From positions 1 to 64,000 of the forward strand of contig NZ_SRIC01000006.1 of NCBI RefSeq assembly GCF_004684775.1: a stretch of 64,000 bases of DNA, written 5' to 3'. Position numbers and translations under genes: made by a program. Within the stretch, counting starts at the first letter, position 1. Every line of letters begins with the position of its first letter. The DNA is from Streptomyces sp. MZ04. GTDB lineage: Bacteria > Actinomycetota > Actinomycetes > Streptomycetales > Streptomycetaceae. The notes beneath the pieces were generated by a model. The model was given only the letters and a program-made list of their open reading frames with translations, had not been told where the DNA came from and did not search any database. Of the stretch, positions 31,149 through 38,149 are shown one piece after another.

Positions 31149-31305
31149 ATATGCCTGAGTGCTATGATCATGGCGCTTGCCGAGCGGATGTTCCCCCCCC
31201 ATGAAATGCCCGCGGCAAGGGCGACCCGGGCGGCGCATGCACCGCTGTCGAGGGTCTCACGGGCAGGTTCCAGTAACTGGACTCCAGTCAGTTGAAGAGA
31301 GTCAT

Positions 31306-32499
31306 ATGACGAACTACTTGCAGGATCCGGCGGTCTGGGCGTTGACTGCCGGCGTCCCTGCTGCGGCCACTCTCGTGGTGCGCCAGCGTAGGGCGATCAG
31401 AGCTTTACGCCAGGAGAGACAGAGGTCCGAGGCGTCCAACGCCGACCTGCGAAGCCAGTACGCCGCCCTTGAAGCCCATCTCGTCGAACTGCGCAGCAGT
31501 TACGACGAGGTTGTCCGGCAGGCCAAGGAGGAGGCGGAGAACGCGACGAAGACCGTACTGAAGTCCGCGATGCGGACACTCCAGGGTCTCGCCGCGGAGC
31601 AGCAGAAGGCCATCTCCCAGTTGCAGCAGAAGTACGGCGACTCGGCCGTTCTGCGGGACATGCTGGACATCGACCACATGAACAGCCAATTCGGCAGACG
31701 CGCACAGTCCATCGCCGTGCTGTGCCAGGGTTGGCTCGGCAGACAGCGGGATCCGGCGTCGGTCTACGACGTGATCCGCAGCGCTCAGGGAAGGATCCGA
31801 CACTTCCCGCGGGTCGAGATTCTTTCGCAGATCAATTTCGCCGTGACCAGCAGGGCGGTCGAGCCGGTCGCGCTCGCGGTCGCCGAACTGCTCGACAATG
31901 CCACGAGCTATTCGGCACCCGAAACCGTGGTCGAGATCAACGTGCGGACGGTGCCGAGCGGCATCTGCATCGTGATCGACGACGCGGGTGTCGGGATGAA
32001 CGAGGAGGAGAAGACCCACGCCTCGTCGCTCCTGTCGGGTGCACGTGCGGCCAGCGTCAGCGATCTCGGCAACCCGCCGCAGTTCGGCTTCGCGGTCATC
32101 GGCGCCTTGTGCGCTCGCTACGACTTCAACGTGACGGTCGACACCGCCTCTCCCTACGGTGGCGTCCGCGCGGTGCTTCTCCTCCCGAAGGACCTGCTCA
32201 CCAGCATGCCGGAGCCGAAGCCCACCACTGCCCTGCCGGACCCGGTCTCGAGCGGGAGCGAGCCGGAGGCGCCCGCGACCACCACGGCCGACGGGCTGCC
32301 CAAACGCAGGCGCAAGCGGACCATGAGTGTGGTGCCGAGCGGCGAGCCCCCCGCCCGCCAGCCCGCTCGTTCGAGCAGAGAGACGGCATCGATCCTCGGT
32401 GCCTTCCAGCGCGGCACCGAGCACGGCAGGACCACGCTGCCGGACCTCGAGGACCAGCCGGGCCACGCCGACGCACGCAAAGGACCTGACGCCCCGTGA
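31306..32499 (+). CDS. cvnA: Conservon sensor-like ATPase CvnA
   Basis: 397-aa histidine-kinase-like protein. It has one short N-terminal membrane helix (~10-25), a long coiled coil (~30-115), then an HATPase domain with AELLDNATSYSAPETVV (N box), IDDAGVGMNEEE (G1) and FGFAVIGALCARY. The C-terminus is a Pro/Ser-rich disordered tail. It heads the cvnABCD(E) order, a G-protein-coupled-like signalling complex of actinomycetes. ATG 31306 is chosen; an open frame from 31177 begins in a C8 run and is not credible. Codon 31405-31407 is TTA. Confidence 0.9.
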   Translation: MTNYLQDPAVWALTAGVPAAATLVVRQRRAIRALRQERQRSEASNADLRSQYAALEAHLVELRSSYDEVVRQAKEEAENATKTVLKSAMRTLQGLAAEQQKAISQLQQKYGDSAVLRDMLDIDHMNSQFGRRAQSIAVLCQGWLGRQRDPASVYDVIRSAQGRIRHFPRVEILSQINFAVTSRAVEPVALAVAELLDNATSYSAPETVVEINVRTVPSGICIVIDDAGVGMNEEEKTHASSLLSGARAASVSDLGNPPQFGFAVIGALCARYDFNVTVDTASPYGGVRAVLLLPKDLLTSMPEPKPTTALPDPVSSGSEPEAPATTTADGLPKRRRKRTMSVVPSGEPPARQPARSSRETASILGAFQRGTEHGRTTLPDLEDQPGHADARKGPDAP

Positions 32500-32897
32500 G
32501 TACTGATCTGTCCTGGATGCTCGAGAGCGCCCTGGAGATTCCCGGGGCCCTGCATGCGGTTCTGGTCTCCGCCGACGGGCTGCCGATGTCCCGTACTTCG
32601 GGGCTCGGTCGCGACTCGGCCGACAAAGTCGCCGCCGCGATGAGCGGAGTGCATTCTCTCAGCCGCTCCCTCGGGTTCTTCTGTGACGACGACAGCCTGC
32701 AGTGGCGTCAGACCCTGGTCGAGTTCGACGGCGGCTGGGTCTTCCTCGTCTCCGCGGGGACGGGCGCCTACCTCGCGGTCGCGGCGAACCTCGAGGTCGA
32801 CATGGCCGACATCACCTTCCGCATGCAGCAGCTCGTCGGCCAGCTGGGCAAGGAACTGTCGACACCACCCCGCGAAGACATCGGTCATCGCCCATGA
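32496..32897 (+). CDS. cvnB: Conservon roadblock/LC7 protein CvnB
   Basis: 133-aa single-domain roadblock/LC7 protein (MLESALEIPGALHAVLVSADGLPMS start, ADKVAAAMSGVHSL helix, YLAVAANLEVDMADITFRMQQLV end). In conservons this partner binds the CvnD GTPase and probably acts as its regulator. GTG 32496 overlaps cvnA by GTGA. Confidence 0.92.
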   Translation: MSTDLSWMLESALEIPGALHAVLVSADGLPMSRTSGLGRDSADKVAAAMSGVHSLSRSLGFFCDDDSLQWRQTLVEFDGGWVFLVSAGTGAYLAVAANLEVDMADITFRMQQLVGQLGKELSTPPREDIGHRP

Positions 32898-33277
32898 CCG
32901 ACCAAGACCTCCCCGAGCCCGAACTCGAATCGGGCCATTTAGTCCGGCCCTATGTCATCACCGGCGGGCGGGATCTTCCCGGCGAGAACCAGTTCGCGCT
33001 CATCACTCTCGTCACGACGGCCGTCGACCAGCGGCAGCGTCCCGCTCGGCTCTCTCCCGAAGAGCAGCAACTCCTGGAGATGTGCGCGGGCGGTTACCTG
33101 TCCGTCGCCGAGATCGCCGGGCACACCCACCTCCCCTTGGGCGTGCTCAAGGTCCTTCTCAGCTCCCTCGCAGAGGGCGGCTACCTGCTCACCCGCGCGC
33201 CGGTGCCGCAGGCTCGCCTGGTCGACAAAGAACTCTTGCAGGAGGTGCTGGATGGTCTCAAGGCCCGTCTTGGATGA
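32894..33277 (+). CDS. cvnC: Conservon DUF742 protein CvnC
   Basis: 127-aa DUF742 protein. Its C-terminal two-thirds look like a winged-helix (LSPEEQQLLEMCAGGYLSVAEIAGHTHLPLGVLKVLLSSLAEGGYL), and LVRPYVITGG near the start is the family signature. It is thought to link the sensor and GTPase parts. ATG 32894 overlaps cvnB by ATGA, and the 3' end overlaps cvnD by 26 nt. Confidence 0.92.
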   Translation: MTDQDLPEPELESGHLVRPYVITGGRDLPGENQFALITLVTTAVDQRQRPARLSPEEQQLLEMCAGGYLSVAEIAGHTHLPLGVLKVLLSSLAEGGYLLTRAPVPQARLVDKELLQEVLDGLKARLG

Positions 33278-33857
33278 TGACGCCTACGTACGGCGCGGCG
33301 CGGAGCAGACCGCTGTGAAGATCCTGGTCGTCGGACACTTCGCCGTCGGCAAGACCACACTCATCAGCACGCTCTCCGAGATCACCCCGCTGTCCACCGA
33401 GGAGAGCATGACGCGCGTCTCCGAGACCGTGGACGATCTCAAGGGGGTGCGGGGCAAGACCACCACCACGGTCGCCCTGGACTTCGGACGGCTGACGCTC
33501 AGCGACCGCGTGGTGCTCTATCTGTTCGGAACCCCGGGACAACAGCGGTTCGTCAACCTCTGGGAAGACATGGCCCGCGGCGCTCTGGGAGCCCTGGTCC
33601 TGGTCGACCCCGAGCGGCTGTCGGACTCGTTCGCCGTCATGGACCTGATCGAGGAACACGGCCTCGACTACGCCATCGCCATCAACCATTTCGACGGTTC
33701 TCCGGCGCGTACGGAGGCGGCAGTGCGCGAAGCGCTCGACCTGCTCCCCGACACCCCGGTCGTCGTCATGGACGCGCGGGACCAGAGATCGTCGACAGAC
33801 GCACTGATCACGCTAGTTCGCCACCTACAGCAACGCGCCGCCCTGGAGCACGCATGA
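33252..33857 (+). CDS. cvnD: Conservon small GTPase CvnD
   Basis: 201-aa Ras/MglA-like GTPase of the conservon type. It has the P-loop GHFAVGKTT (28-36), a switch I threonine region TTTTVALDFGR, and FGTPGQQRFVNLWEDMARGA, in which the usual DxxG is replaced by GTPGQ, a typical CvnD feature. The NKxD region reads NHFD. ATG 33252 starts inside the end of cvnC. It is the signalling switch of the complex and probably membrane-associated with CvnA. Confidence 0.92.
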   Translation: MVSRPVLDDDAYVRRGAEQTAVKILVVGHFAVGKTTLISTLSEITPLSTEESMTRVSETVDDLKGVRGKTTTTVALDFGRLTLSDRVVLYLFGTPGQQRFVNLWEDMARGALGALVLVDPERLSDSFAVMDLIEEHGLDYAIAINHFDGSPARTEAAVREALDLLPDTPVVVMDARDQRSSTDALITLVRHLQQRAALEHA

Positions 33858-35200
33858 CCACCGCCCCCGTCCCGCCACCCGGCTGCCCCGCGCACGACAG
33901 CGGTCGGCCGATCCCCCTCCACACGGCACAGTTCGCCGCCGACCCGCATGCCTTCTACGCGTACATGCGCCATCACGGACCCGCTACGCCCGTCGAGCTC
34001 GCTCCCGGAGTGGAAGCGACCCTGGTGACGGACTACGGCGCGGCGCTCGATCTGCTGCAGAATCCGGCGGTCTTCCGCAAGGACCCCTACCGATGGCAAG
34101 CCCTCAGCGAAGGACGGATACCCGCCGACAGCCCGGTCCTTCCGCTGCTCGCCCCGCGGCCCAACTGCATGTTCACCGACGGCGCCCCGCACTTGCGGCT
34201 GCGCCAGGCCGTCACCGACAGTCTGGCCCGGATCAGCGACATTCAGCTGAGCCGGAACGTCGAGCGGGTCGCCGAGTATCTCATCGCCCAGTTCAGCGCC
34301 CGCGGTTCGGCCGACCTGCTCAACGACTACGCCAAGCCGTTGCCTCTGTTCGTGTTCAACGAACTCTTCGGCTGCCCGCCGGAGATCGGTGACCGGGTCA
34401 TGTTCGGCATCGCCGGCATGTTCGACGGCGTCAACGCGGAACAGGCCAACCAGGTGCTCGTCCAGGCCGTCGGCGAACTGGTCGCCCTGAAGCGGGAGCA
34501 GCCGGGCGAGGACGTCACCTCCTGGCTGATGGAGCATCCCGCGCAGCTGAACGACATGGAAATGGTTCACCAGCTGGTGCTGCTTCTCGGCGCCGGTGCC
34601 GAGCCGCTGCGCGGCCTCCTCGGCAACACCCTGCACCAGGTGTTCACCAACGAACGTTTCGCGCGCAGCGGACTGCTGGACGAAGCTCTCGACGACACCC
34701 TGTGGCGCAATCCGCCCATGGCCAACTACGCGCCCCACTATCCGGCCGTGGACACGGATGTGGCCGGTCACAAGGTCCGCGCCGGAGAGCTGGTGATGGT
34801 GAGCTTCGCAGCCGCCAACGCCTCTCTGGCGGACCAGGCCGGCAGCAATCGTGCTCACCTCGCCTGGAGTGCCGGCCCTCACGCGTGCCCCTCCAAGGAG
34901 CCCGCCCGGCTCATCACCCTGACGGCCATCGAGTATCTGCTCAACGAGCTGCCCGACGTCGAACTCGCGGTTCCGGAGGAAAGCCTGGCCTGGCGGCCCG
35001 GCCCGTTCAACCGGGCATTGGCGCAGCTTCCCGTCCGGTTCGGCCCCGTTAAACCACACGCTTCCGCACAGCCACAGACACAGCAGCCGGAGACACCCCA
35101 ACGGCCCCAGGCGCCCCAGCACTCGGTGCCGAGCACCGAACAGGGCAACGCCAAGCGCCCCGGGCGGTGGAGCGCCTTCCTCACCTGGCTGCAGGGGTGA
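33854..35200 (+). CDS. cvnE: Conservon P450, CYP157-like, without canonical ExxR
   Basis: 448-aa P450-fold protein. The proximal-loop cysteine is in SAGPHACPSKEPARL (Cys345), lacking the FxxGxR frame. The K-helix motif ExxR is replaced by DDTLW (280-284). The I-helix LLLGAGAEPLRGLLG lacks the acid-Thr pair. Loss of ExxR is an established property of the CYP157 family, which is linked to conservons. The last ~55 residues are a Gln/Pro-rich tail. ATG 33854 overlaps cvnD by ATGA. Catalysis is uncertain; a signalling or binding role is possible. Confidence 0.88.
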   Translation: MTTAPVPPPGCPAHDSGRPIPLHTAQFAADPHAFYAYMRHHGPATPVELAPGVEATLVTDYGAALDLLQNPAVFRKDPYRWQALSEGRIPADSPVLPLLAPRPNCMFTDGAPHLRLRQAVTDSLARISDIQLSRNVERVAEYLIAQFSARGSADLLNDYAKPLPLFVFNELFGCPPEIGDRVMFGIAGMFDGVNAEQANQVLVQAVGELVALKREQPGEDVTSWLMEHPAQLNDMEMVHQLVLLLGAGAEPLRGLLGNTLHQVFTNERFARSGLLDEALDDTLWRNPPMANYAPHYPAVDTDVAGHKVRAGELVMVSFAAANASLADQAGSNRAHLAWSAGPHACPSKEPARLITLTAIEYLLNELPDVELAVPEESLAWRPGPFNRALAQLPVRFGPVKPHASAQPQTQQPETPQRPQAPQHSVPSTEQGNAKRPGRWSAFLTWLQG

Positions 35201-35248
35201 AGCCTGGCAACGTGATGTGACACAGGAGACACATGAGGTAATTGCTAG

Positions 35249-35279
35249 TTGCATGAAGGCTGAATCGCCGGGGTAGGAC
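35249..35279 (+). promoter_or_regulatory. Possible promoter for the prenyltransferase-tryptophanase unit
   Basis: TTGCAT (35249-35254) and TAGGAC (35274-35279) resemble a vegetative -35/-10 pair with a long 19-nt spacer. It lies 42 nt before the leader ORF start. This is the only such pair seen between the P450 stop and the leader, so it is offered with low confidence. Confidence 0.3.
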
Positions 35280-35320
35280 CACGCGGACTGTCTGGGTTGT
35301 CACACGATGAAGGAGAGACA

Positions 35321-35554
35321 GTGGAGCCCCACGGCATAACCGCTCATCCATCTGCGGCTCGACCACCCCGGAGGCATTCGCCCTTCAGACGAAAAGCCGC
35401 GCCCATGGGCGCTGAGCTCGATGGAGAACACGGTCGGATACCCGCCTCTCCGGGCGGGTATCTTTTTGCCTCCTCGCGCACCGGCGGGCGGCCTGCGGGG
35501 GTGATGCCGACGTGCGACGGATCCCGGCGCCGAGCGCTGCTGGGGGCACGGTGA
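35321..35554 (+). CDS. Putative leader ORF coupled to the prenyltransferase gene
   Basis: A 77-codon ORF (starting VEPHGITAHPS) begins at GTG 35321 with a strong AAGGAGAG ribosome site. It runs through the intrinsic terminator at 35437-35467 and stops at 35552-35554, giving a GTGA overlap with the next gene. No protein family is recognised; the product is Arg/Pro-rich and probably unstructured. Its ribosome site and first codons closely resemble those of tnaA (36776). In another frame, ATG 35307 gives a ten-residue peptide with one Trp codon. Read as a regulatory leader rather than an enzyme. Translation is inferred only from the ribosome site and the overlap. Confidence 0.45.
   Translation: MEPHGITAHPSAARPPRRHSPFRRKAAPMGAELDGEHGRIPASPGGYLFASSRTGGRPAGVMPTCDGSRRRALLGAR
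35399..35412 (+). repeat. Perfect 14-bp palindrome in the leader
   Basis: GCGCCCATGGGCGC is self-complementary and lies 25 nt before the terminator stem. It could form a pause hairpin or the alternative structure of an attenuator. Confidence 0.45.
35437..35467 (+). terminator. Intrinsic terminator/attenuator before the prenyltransferase
   Basis: GATACCCGCC (35437-35446) pairs perfectly with GGCGGGTATC (35453-35462) around a 6-nt loop, followed by TTTTT. This is a textbook rho-independent terminator on the + strand, unusual for such GC-rich DNA. It lies between the putative promoter and the prenyltransferase start, not after a gene, so attenuation is the natural reading. It is also 240 bp beyond the P450 stop and could simply end conservon transcription. 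Confidence 0.8.
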
Positions 35555-36714
35555 GTGCGCTCGTGATGCCCGACGCCGCGTCGGCACCCGCCGCCGGATC
35601 CAACAGAACAACGCTCGGCGAACACGTCCTGGGCCAACTGCTGCGCCTGGCCCCCATCGCCGGGCTGGCGGACGCGGACACGCGCACGTACGGCCAGGTC
35701 CTCATGGACTCCCTGACGGACACCGCGCACCGGCCGTTGACTCTGCCGCCGGCCTCGCTCAGCTACATCTCCGATGACCACACCCCGGTCGAGTTCTCCC
35801 TCGCCTTAACCCCGGATGCCGCTCCGACTCTGCGCATGCTGGTGGAACCCGGTTGCGCTTCCGGTGACATGGCCGAGAGCGGTCGTGCCGGCCTGAAGGT
35901 CATCCGTGAGATGGCCGACCGGTGGAATTTCTCCACCGCTCAACTCGACGCCGTGGAAGACCTTTTCTTCCCGGACGCCGCGGAGGGGCCGATGGCTCTC
36001 TGGTACGCGCTGGATCTGCGTCCCGGAGGAGTACCCGGGGTCAAGGTCTATCTGAACCCCTCTGCCGACGGCCCCGAGAACGCCGCCCGTACAGTGCGGG
36101 AAGCGCTGCAGCGACTCGGCCACCCCGACGCGTTCGCAGCGCTTCCCGACGCGGCGGGCTACCCCTTCATCGCCCTCGATCTGGGCAGTTGGGCGACGCC
36201 TCGCGCCAGGGTGTACGTCAAGCATCCCCGCATGTCCGCAGACGATGCCGTCACGGTGAGCCGTACCGCGCCCGGCCTGGCGGAAGACCAGGTCAGATCC
36301 TTCTTCCGGCTGGCCACGGGATCGGCCCCGCTGCCCGGCCGGAAGGCCGGAGAGAGCCCGCGGCTACTGCGGCGGCCCGCGCTCACCTGCCATGCCTTCA
36401 CGGACAGAGAGACCGCCTCACCGAGCGGCTTCACGCTGCACATCCCCGTCCGGGACTACGTCCGCGACGACGAGGAGGCCCTCACCCGGGCTACGGCCCT
36501 GCTGAGCCACTTCGGCATGGACGCATCGGCCCTCCGTCGAGCCCTGGCCGCCCTCACCCCCCGGGAACTCACCGACGGCGTCGGGCTGATCGCCTACCTG
36601 GCCCTCGCGCATCAGCAGCACCAGCAGCCCCGCGTCACCGTCTACCTCTCCTCCGAGGCGTACGCGGTCCGCCCGCCGCCGTCCCTGCCTCAGCGGGAAA
36701 CAAGCGCCCCCTGA
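35551..36714 (+). CDS. Aromatic (indole/tryptophan) prenyltransferase, ABBA/DMATS fold
   Basis: 387-aa soluble prenyltransferase of the DMATS superfamily, which attaches a dimethylallyl group to an indole ring. Seen: PVEFSLAL strand, LWYALDLRPGGVPGVKVYLNPSADG, ARVYVKHPR, and LHIPVRDYVRDDEEA, corresponding to successive ABBA barrel strands with the basic diphosphate-binding residues. Family knowledge: bacterial relatives include IptA of Streptomyces SN-593 (6-dimethylallyltryptophan) and SCO7467. GTG 35551 is chosen because it forms a GTGA overlap; the frame is open to 35512. TTA codon at 35806-35808 suggests bldA control. The regiochemistry cannot be told. Confidence 0.85.
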   Translation: MSALVMPDAASAPAAGSNRTTLGEHVLGQLLRLAPIAGLADADTRTYGQVLMDSLTDTAHRPLTLPPASLSYISDDHTPVEFSLALTPDAAPTLRMLVEPGCASGDMAESGRAGLKVIREMADRWNFSTAQLDAVEDLFFPDAAEGPMALWYALDLRPGGVPGVKVYLNPSADGPENAARTVREALQRLGHPDAFAALPDAAGYPFIALDLGSWATPRARVYVKHPRMSADDAVTVSRTAPGLAEDQVRSFFRLATGSAPLPGRKAGESPRLLRRPALTCHAFTDRETASPSGFTLHIPVRDYVRDDEEALTRATALLSHFGMDASALRRALAALTPRELTDGVGLIAYLALAHQQHQQPRVTVYLSSEAYAVRPPPSLPQRETSAP

Positions 36715-36775
36715 GCAGGGGCGCGGCATCACAAGCCACGTACCAAGCACACGTAGAGCAAAAGGAAGAACGCCA

Positions 36776-38149
36776 GTGGAGCCCTACCGCATCAAGGTTG
36801 TCGAGCCCCTCGCCATCACGACTCGCGCGCAGCGCGAGGAGGCCCTCAAGCGGGTCGCCTACAACCCCTTCGACCTGCGTGCCGACGAGGTCACCATCGA
36901 TCTGCTGAGTGACTCGGGAACAGGCGCGCTCTCCGCAGCCCAACTGGCCGCCGGTATGAACGCTGACGAGTCCTACGCCGGATCCCGCTCGTTCTACCGC
37001 TGGCACGCCGTCGTCAGCGAACTCACCGGATATCCGCACATCCTGCCGACCCATCAAGGAAGGGCGGCGGAACGCATTCTGTTCGCCGCGCTCCTCGAAC
37101 CCGGCAGCACCGTCCTGTCGAACACTCACTTCGACACCACTCGCGCCAACGTGGAACTGACCGGCTGCCAGGCACGTGACCTGCCCTGCGCCGAGGCCGC
37201 GGACCTCGACAGCGATTATCCCTTCAAGGGCAACATCGACCTGTCCGCTCTTCAGCAGGCGCTCGAGAGCGCACAGGAGTCCCCCGTCTCGGCCGTGGTG
37301 ATGACCATCACCAACAACGGTGGTGGCGGGCAGCCGGTCTCCATGGAGAACCTGCGCCAAACGGCAGAACTGTGCCGCCGCCACAACGTCCCCATGATTC
37401 TGGACGCCGCGCGCTTCGCGGAGAACGCCTGGCTGGTGACCCGCCGCGAACCCGGATACCAGGACCGCACCCCCCGCCAGGTCTCCGAAGAGGCCTTCGG
37501 GCTGGCGGACGGATGCATCATGAGCGCCAAAAAGGACGGCATCGTCCACATCGGCGGCTTCATCGGTCTCAAGGACCCCGAACTCGCCGAGAAGTGCAAT
37601 GGGCTGCTCATCGCCACCGAAGGCTTCTCCACCTACGGCGGTCTGGCCGGCCGTGACCTCGACATGATGGCCCAGGGCCTCCTCGAGGTCACCGAGCCGA
37701 CCTATCTGGCGGAGCGCGCCGAGGCAGCCAACTACCTCGCCGAGCGCATCCGCGCCGTCGGCGTCGACATCGTCGAACCCGCGGGCCTGCATGCCCTCTA
37801 CCTCAACGCCGGGCGCCTCCTGCCCCACATACCGCCTCATCAGTACCCCGGCACCGCACTGGTCTGCGAGCTCTATCTGCGTGGGGGCATCCGCTCCGCA
37901 GAGCTGGGATCCCTCTACCTCGGCGAGGAGGACGACCAGGGAAACCCCGTCAAGAGCGCGCCTTACGAACTGGTGAGGCTGGCACTCCCGCGCCGCGTCT
38001 ACACCCGCAGCCACTACGACCACGTCGCCCAGACCCTGGCAGACATAGCCAAGGATCCCAGCTCGGTACACGGCTATCGCATCGTGGGGCAGTCACCGAT
38101 CCTGCGCCATTTCAGCATTCAGCTGGAACCGGTGAAATCCGCGGGCTGA
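36776..38149 (+). CDS. tnaA: Tryptophanase
   Basis: 457-aa PLP beta-eliminating lyase converting tryptophan, or here prenyltryptophan, to the indole, pyruvate and ammonia. Seen: DESYAGSRSFY, PTHQGRAAER, DAARFAENAW and the PLP lysine in MSAKKD (Lys253). Residues separating tryptophanase from tyrosine phenol-lyase favour tryptophanase: Asp in HFDTTR and His in LRHF. GTG 36776 follows AAAGGAAGAAC, 61 nt after the prenyltransferase. The pairing implies release of a prenylated indole. E. coli tnaA is controlled by a tryptophan-sensing leader, which makes the upstream leader and terminator notable. Confidence 0.93.
   Translation: MEPYRIKVVEPLAITTRAQREEALKRVAYNPFDLRADEVTIDLLSDSGTGALSAAQLAAGMNADESYAGSRSFYRWHAVVSELTGYPHILPTHQGRAAERILFAALLEPGSTVLSNTHFDTTRANVELTGCQARDLPCAEAADLDSDYPFKGNIDLSALQQALESAQESPVSAVVMTITNNGGGGQPVSMENLRQTAELCRRHNVPMILDAARFAENAWLVTRREPGYQDRTPRQVSEEAFGLADGCIMSAKKDGIVHIGGFIGLKDPELAEKCNGLLIATEGFSTYGGLAGRDLDMMAQGLLEVTEPTYLAERAEAANYLAERIRAVGVDIVEPAGLHALYLNAGRLLPHIPPHQYPGTALVCELYLRGGIRSAELGSLYLGEEDDQGNPVKSAPYELVRLALPRRVYTRSHYDHVAQTLADIAKDPSSVHGYRIVGQSPILRHFSIQLEPVKSAG

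Follow-up and report, generated by a model that had tools for sequence, protein, structure and literature searches.

A conserved, hairpin-bearing leader open reading frame coupled to the prenyltransferase gene iptA in Streptomyces, and its probable kinship with a P450 gene

In the pyrBI operon of Escherichia coli a terminator lies within a 135-bp leader gene, and tight coupling between ribosome and polymerase is described as preventing termination there (PMC4824070, PMC5021804). In the tna operon a stalled ribosome is described as masking Rho sites (PMC5021804), and work on insertion-sequence attenuators reports that a pseudogene can supply a terminator that attenuates the neighbouring gene (PMC2965389). 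Clusters of iptA with a conservon have already been published as type A and type B, a flavin monooxygenase replacing the tryptophanase in type B, the type found in S. coelicolor (PMC3617294). Here we analyze 64,000 nucleotides of Streptomyces sp. MZ04 (contig NZ_SRIC01000006.1, positions 1 to 64,000 of the forward strand, assembly GCF_004684775.1), hereafter the window, in which a leader open reading frame (ORF) precedes the indole prenyltransferase gene iptA within a host operon ordered as in the published type A cluster: conservon cvnA-D, divergent P450, iptA, tryptophanase gene. No description of an iptA leader was met in a literature search that covered titles and abstract openings and left subscription papers mostly uncovered, and we do not claim its absence from print.

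Judged from sequence comparison, the leader is real and conserved and appears to be of unusual origin, and its proposed mechanism is probable: the leader probably permits prenyltransferase synthesis solely while ribosomes keep pace. The reading that we favour, with moderate confidence, derives the leader from the 5' end of a P450 gene that was otherwise lost: this stub would be translated, coupled to iptA and equipped with a terminator that ribosomes can suppress, in the manner of pyrBI. An earlier note, made from the letters of the window alone, had described a 77-codon ORF with a ribosome site, a terminator-like hairpin with TTTTT inside it, and a prenyltransferase start codon that shares GTGA with the stop of the ORF. 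These elements were all found as described (Table 1), the hairpin and its T-run occupying positions 35437-35467. The interpretation placed on them held for the hairpin-spanning ORF coupled to the prenyltransferase, but not for the proposed tryptophan-sensing parallel with TnaC.

To assemble the loci, IptA matches were collected from 84 of 392 genus genomes at E 1e-3 and, at E 1e-60, from 46 of 293 order genomes and 9 of 394 class genomes, to which 11 named Streptomyces loci were added. Loci with an identical 250-nt upstream stretch were counted once, and genus matches of 28-33% identity, a 44-residue piece in G073 and the order matches G512 and G524 were left out, giving 96 distinct loci. Under a fixed definition (a promoter-like GGGTA, a ribosome site and a start codon, the iptA overlap being no part of it), the leader is present in 83 of the 96, so that conservation in relatives, set beforehand as a check, was found. 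The others are ten loci of a deep clade without leader (42-47% identity by tblastn; the script wrongly flagged L070 among them) and three exclusions, L046, L058 and L124, for which the script saw no leader ORF or a wrong start; L046 and L124 look leader-like by eye. The ten deepest IptA relatives show neither a leader nor a P450 match in the fetched stretch.

Coupling to iptA is seen in every one of the 71 unfused leader ORFs as a 4-nt overlap in the IptA frame (43 GTGA, 24 ATGA and 4 TTGA), and this overlap is held across 20 different leader lengths, from 35 to 83 codons. In the remaining 12 of the 83 loci (L044, L048, L052, L060, L118, L121, L126, L130, L132, L137, L139 and L141) the ORF is fused in frame to iptA, and the enzyme gains an N-terminal extension derived from the stub; the hairpin is retained in 11 of these and degraded in L060. 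An open frame alone would be unremarkable in the window, where 23% of shuffled leader bodies stay open, and it is conservation, not openness itself, that makes the ORF noteworthy. The alignments thus demonstrate a conserved leader and a conserved coupling architecture at the sequence level. Additionally, 23 bases inside the leader (35515-35537) are identical to G000:C622:15212-15234, on another contig of the same genome.

The hairpin is more than a product of chance. As scored it has 12 pairs, with a z of -4.2 for a 46-nt stretch and of -1.6 for the whole leader; the palindrome, at most 3 mismatches being allowed, has a chance expectation of 0.01 in the window, and a perfect 10-bp stem appeared in 3 of 1440 dinucleotide-shuffled leaders. 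In every one of the 72 leader loci that bear it, the hairpin lies inside the ORF, with a loop of 6 nt in 71 and of 5 nt in one. Its arms are read in frame 0 (as IPAxxGGY) in 61 loci and in frame 1 in 11, and on the IptA tree, which was built with a quick method and midpoint-rooted, at least two frame changes, two fusion-state changes and four hairpin-presence changes are required. Persistence in a second reading frame indicates selection of the hairpin as nucleic acid, and the comparison of loci thereby shows that it is maintained as such; mere conservation of codons or peptide fails to account for the 11 loci in the second frame. In a subset of 43 of the 72 loci the true register pairs 98.4% of cells, against 39-47% when the arms are slid, and two pairs are changed on both sides (3 cells, against 0.1 in shuffles). 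For predicted nascent leaders the mean probability of the core pairs is 0.99, and it exceeds 0.5 in 72 of 72.

Of the 392 genus genomes, 39 have the exact 24-nt core, once in each and always 27-144 nt upstream of the aligned IptA start, and in its own genome the palindrome site is unique save for one match with 3 mismatches. We therefore dropped the reading of the site as the operator of a regulon, the site being near-unique in its own genome and, in exact form, confined to iptA in the genus sample. Tail position 6 is G in all 72 loci, the preceding base is T or C in 71, and at least three T are found among the 8 tail positions in 66. No conserved competing antiterminator was found in the 72 hairpin leaders: a complement of at least 7 nt to the 5' arm lies upstream in three, and a copy of the 5' arm in seven. 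With no conserved antiterminator found and a hairpin core that dominates the predicted nascent fold in 72 of 72, the ribosome itself would have to block the hairpin. A 14-bp palindrome noticed earlier ahead of the hairpin, GCGCCCATGGGCGC (35399-35412), does exist; it is not conserved, being disrupted already in L004, whose IptA is 93% identical and which is the closest relative. No Rfam family scored above its gathering score in 35000-36900, the best being SgrS inside iptA (18.6 bits against 37). Outside the counted 72, the second iptA copy of one genome (L046) has a decayed leader with a T-A for a C-G pair in the hairpin core.

A conserved promoter-like block sits upstream of the leader ORF, and a consensus scan detected no sigma-70-like site downstream of 35467. 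With GGGTA as anchor of the alignment, 83 of 83 loci have the first G and also the T of the GCAT element; the anchor was required by the search, so the -35 part alone counts as independent promoter evidence. The S. coelicolor promoter SCO0566p, which belongs to a sigma-B homologue, is given as GCATAA-N14-GGGTAT (PMC8346170). By eye we also noticed, in many loci without tnaA, an inverted repeat like GTGAGCAAC-N11-GTTGCTTAC (35277-35305 region), which is indistinct in the window. This repeat spans the -10 region and the likely start point and is operator-like.

To trace the origin of the leader we used R1, a sequence-only model that extends from the promoter to codon 10. For R1, 48 of the 83 leaders served as input, and the model was searched in 246 genomes. 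It gave 35 matches at E 1e-9 or better, by coordinates all at iptA loci, and since R1 was built from leaders these arise partly by construction, whereas the six P450 places described below are not in the model. Seven places with weaker matches were examined (E 1.5e-7 to 1.05e-3; of those at E 4e-4 to 0.01, L148, L149 and L150 alone). A second P450, here called P450(2), stands behind the match in six of the seven, the seventh (L149) being unrelated. Five of the six are preceded by cvnA-D and by a P450 related to that of the window, and L144 has no conservon in the fetched stretch; the genus search at E 1e-3 found no IptA match in the six genomes. Many genomes also have weak matches to R1 positions 31-102 with an identical score of 19.9 bits (as at G007:C1:183248-183317 and G009:C1:4976784-4976853), which represent some other conserved stretch.

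P450(2) has the same promoter, starts at the position of the leader ORF start, and is colinear with the leader ORF at its N-terminus. The leader of L014 is identical to the P450(2) of L145 at 25 of 56 residues (45%, E 2e-13 for a single comparison), and the leader of L135, from another genus of the family, to the P450(2) of L148 at 20 of 51 (39%, E 9e-5). A profile of the six P450(2) N-termini gave E 1.7e-9 to 1.2e-14 for six leader ORFs and 2.7e-3 for that of L135, while the best of 1660 shuffles reached E 0.22; up to E 10, it matched 41 of 83 real ORFs against 18 of 1660 shuffled ones. These comparisons show that the best-preserved leaders, which branch early on the IptA tree, are related to the P450(2) N-terminus; for the window's own ORF we infer the same ancestry. 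Both P450(2) proteins tested match Pfam p450, and that of L145 aligns with solved P450s, in several best matches, from residues 16-29 on. This alignment with ordinary P450 chains makes the P450 the likelier source, with the leader as what remained of it, and disfavours the possibility that P450(2) gained its leader from iptA loci. The codons of P450(2) that correspond to the hairpin form 5-8 of 10 pairs, with 1-3 T in the 8-nt tail and an A at tail position 6 in 6 of 6 copies, so that the hairpin in its perfect form, its U-rich tail and the G in that tail look derived. As a separate observation, the leader ORF (35321-35340) and tnaA (36776-36795) start alike with GTGGAGCCC..., agreeing by eye at 16 of 20 letters; an MEP start is also seen in four of the six P450(2) copies, and the likeness may be an old P450 start.

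The scenario that we propose would begin with a former second P450 behind the conservon P450, of which the promoter, ribosome site and first codons would have been retained while iptA replaced the remainder. The stub would have been held open because its translation was required and was handed to iptA through the 4-nt overlap (translational coupling), and a perfect hairpin and U-rich tail would have been acquired over the IPAPxGGYL codons. In the present-day operon, a sigma-B-type RNA polymerase would initiate at about 35284, a start site that follows from the promoter position. If a ribosome from 35321 trails closely, it may cover the hairpin, allowing read-through into iptA and tnaA, and would reinitiate at 35551; if leader initiation or elongation lags, the hairpin could form and transcription would halt at about 35467. 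The termination at the hairpin and its suppression by ribosomes are both inferred. That iptA displaced a conservon-linked P450 gene, whose surviving promoter, start and codons were remodelled into a translation-gated terminator controlling the newcomer and were later fused to the enzyme in some lineages, is a history to which we give slightly better than even chances.

Several observations weigh against this scenario. The six strong P450 matches form one clade, the best shuffle is outscored by 7 of the 83 leader ORFs, and the ORF of the window, at E 5.5 with the P450(2) profile, is not significant by itself; its descent therefore rests on the shared promoter, position, hairpin and IptA tree. 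The covariation score of columns slid by +2 or +3 exceeds that of the true register, and the core stem hardly varies, beyond what a terminator requires. TTTTT is found in just 10 of 72 tails, and some tails read GCTTTG or CTCCCG, weak for an intrinsic terminator. The hairpin is missing and the ORF kept in one 8-locus clade and in L056, L121 and L129. In short leaders the hairpin starts 44 nt past the start codon, and E. coli terminators that lie within 100 bp of the beginning of a coding region are described as less suppressed by ribosomes unless pausing couples the two machineries (PMC4824070). The 5' arm has upstream copies of slightly greater length (5.21) than those in shuffled sequences (4.90), and the ratio of nonsynonymous to synonymous substitution (dN/dS) after the hairpin is 0.51-0.67 in four of six sets, so that weak selection on the peptide is possible.

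Among the alternatives, the likeliest, though in our view itself unlikely, is that the stub acts in translation only: ribosomes would load at the strong site and pass to iptA via the overlap, and the hairpin would tune ribosome traffic, mRNA stability or polymerase pausing without terminating. The overlap is indeed better kept than the hairpin (71 of 71 unfused loci against 72 of 83) and survives in the hairpin-less clade, and many loci have weak T-tracts. A G after a pyrimidine belongs to the consensus of polymerase pause sites, and the invariant G of the tail suits a pause as well as a terminator. However, hairpin and tail share the geometry of intrinsic terminators, and the U-rich tail and the lower stem look derived in comparison with the P450(2) copies. 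Somewhat less probable in our view is a DNA operator: the palindrome would bind a local regulator, of which the linked CvnC (DUF742, of the helix-turn-helix superfamily) is the most plausible, and so form a roadblock downstream of the promoter. The nearly invariant arms and a loop of 6 nt in 71 of 72 loci are as expected for a dimer site, and CvnC8 of S. coelicolor has been proposed, though only proposed, as a DNA-binding repressor acting with CvnD (PMC8510531). On the other hand, the exact site is found once per genome and always upstream of iptA in the 39 of 392 genomes that have it, the loop is 5 nt long in one locus, the second pair is a G-T wobble in four, and an operator does not need a U-rich tail. 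CvnC is also kept where the palindrome is lost, at 72-76% identity in the palindrome-less clade (L034, L036-L038, L040-L042) against 82% in L033 and 76% in L039, and this leaves the operator reading live but weaker.

The tryptophan-sensing leader of the earlier note, a functional parallel to TnaC, is largely refuted and we consider it very improbable. It drew on an operon that uses tryptophan and on one Trp codon (TGG) in a tiny overlapping frame (ATG 35307). That frame exists, yet it is not conserved. The 77-codon ORF has its ribosome site in the same letters, the Trp codon is replaced by a stop in L008, and no counterpart was seen by eye in loci without tnaA. Trp codons are present in 11 of the 71 unfused leader ORFs and absent from the other 60, the window's included, and no run of regulatory codons of the trp/his attenuator type was found, Trp codons being those examined in these 71 ORFs. 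The leader is the same in loci where no tryptophanase gene follows, and among the leader loci, the 50 whose fetched stretch shows no TnaA match have the hairpin in 49 cases, the 33 with a match in 23. Sensing through Trp codons is unlikely and was rejected, because neither those in the ORF nor the tiny frame are conserved. There is also little conservation of the peptide. With our own Nei-Gojobori script, applied to six small sets of related sequences, dN/dS outside the hairpin was about 0.5-2.6, and shifted frames, run for three sets, showed a similar spread (0.35-2.2). These values reveal no clear purifying selection in the six sets, and the leader peptide as a product was rejected; what is preserved is openness and coupling, and barely the peptide.

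The host locus has the upstream neighbours that had been expected, with cvnA-D at about 31297-33857 (HATPase, Roadblock, DUF742 and GTP/ATP-binding) followed by the divergent P450 (Table 1). TTA codons are present at 35806 (iptA), 31405 (cvnA) and 32939 (cvnC), which we take to be possible signs of bldA control, and 17 of the 83 leader-bearing loci have a TTA codon in the aligned part of iptA. The conservon P450 (33854-35200) shows an unusual heme motif, WSAGPHACPS, without a Pfam P450 match. CYP157 proteins are described as odd P450s with a link to conservons (PMC3599690).

Table 1. Positions of the leader elements and host genes in the window
Feature	Coordinates	Strand	Evidence and remarks
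Putative leader promoter, sigma-B-homologue type, GCATGA-N14-GGGTAG	35251..35276	+	Letters and spacing like SCO0566p; TTCAAC-like stretch between, in most relatives
Ribosome binding site of leader ORF, AAGGAG	35310..35315	+	Sequence, alignment
Leader ORF, 77 codons, GTG start 35321, stop TGA 35552-35554	35321..35554	+	Open and coupled in 71/71 unfused loci
Hairpin GATACCCGCC-TCTCCG-GGCGGGTATC over IPAxxGGY codons	35437..35462	+	72/83 leader loci; 64 with 10/10 pairs
U-rich tail, TTTTTG	35463..35468	+	Tail position 6 is G in 72/72 hairpin loci
GTGA overlap of leader stop and iptA start (GTG 35551)	35551..35554	+	Kept in 71/71 unfused loci
iptA, DMATS-family indole prenyltransferase	35551..36714	+	PF11991 E 2.1e-8; TIGR03429 134 bits, under cut-off 164
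Tryptophanase gene, tnaA-like	36776..38149	+	NF009709 tryptophanase 620.6 bits, cut-off 285
Conservon cvnA-D	31297..33857	+	Pfam HATPase_c, Robl_LC7, DUF742, ATP_bind_1; cvnA start approximate
First conservon P450, divergent	33854..35200	+	No Pfam match at E 0.001; NCBIfam P450 models match below own cut-offs

Leader ORFs and attenuators have a rapid turnover of sequence, which makes their origins hard to trace. If the favoured reading is true, this locus would offer a comparative, stepwise origin of a ribosome-controlled leader ORF out of protein-coding sequence, with the stages seemingly preserved next to one another: an intact P450, a stub that can still be recognised, a decayed one with a perfect hairpin, a fused one and one without the hairpin. 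It would also be a candidate control point for the widespread prenyl-indole pathway, tying this pathway to a stress-type promoter and to the conservon.

Compared with the systems described, the conservon-containing iptA clusters published as type A and type B are the hosts of the leader, and the main text of that report contains neither the word leader nor the word terminator (PMC3617294). With TnaC the leader shares its place ahead of a tryptophan-degrading operon, but it has an intrinsic-type hairpin and neither a conserved Trp nor a clearly conserved peptide. In the attenuators exapted from insertion sequences, as far as they are described, the terminators pre-exist at the ends of the element, whereas the iptA hairpin would have arisen among the codons of a P450 stub that also retained its promoter and start codon. 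The reinitiation leaders predicted in Actinobacteria are similar in that a leader gene adjoins the structural gene and the ribosome is passed on, and they differ in that the predicted leaders do not overlap the structural gene, a terminator within the leader not being described in what that report offers on them (PMC4833913). The likeness to pyrBI (pyrL) lies in an intrinsic-terminator-like hairpin inside a leader ORF, suppression by coupling being known, from the reports cited above, for pyrBI. Sequence and genes are unrelated, however, and the iptA leader shows no evidence of UTP sensing and is distinguished by its 4-nt overlap with the structural gene and by its apparent nature as a P450 remnant.

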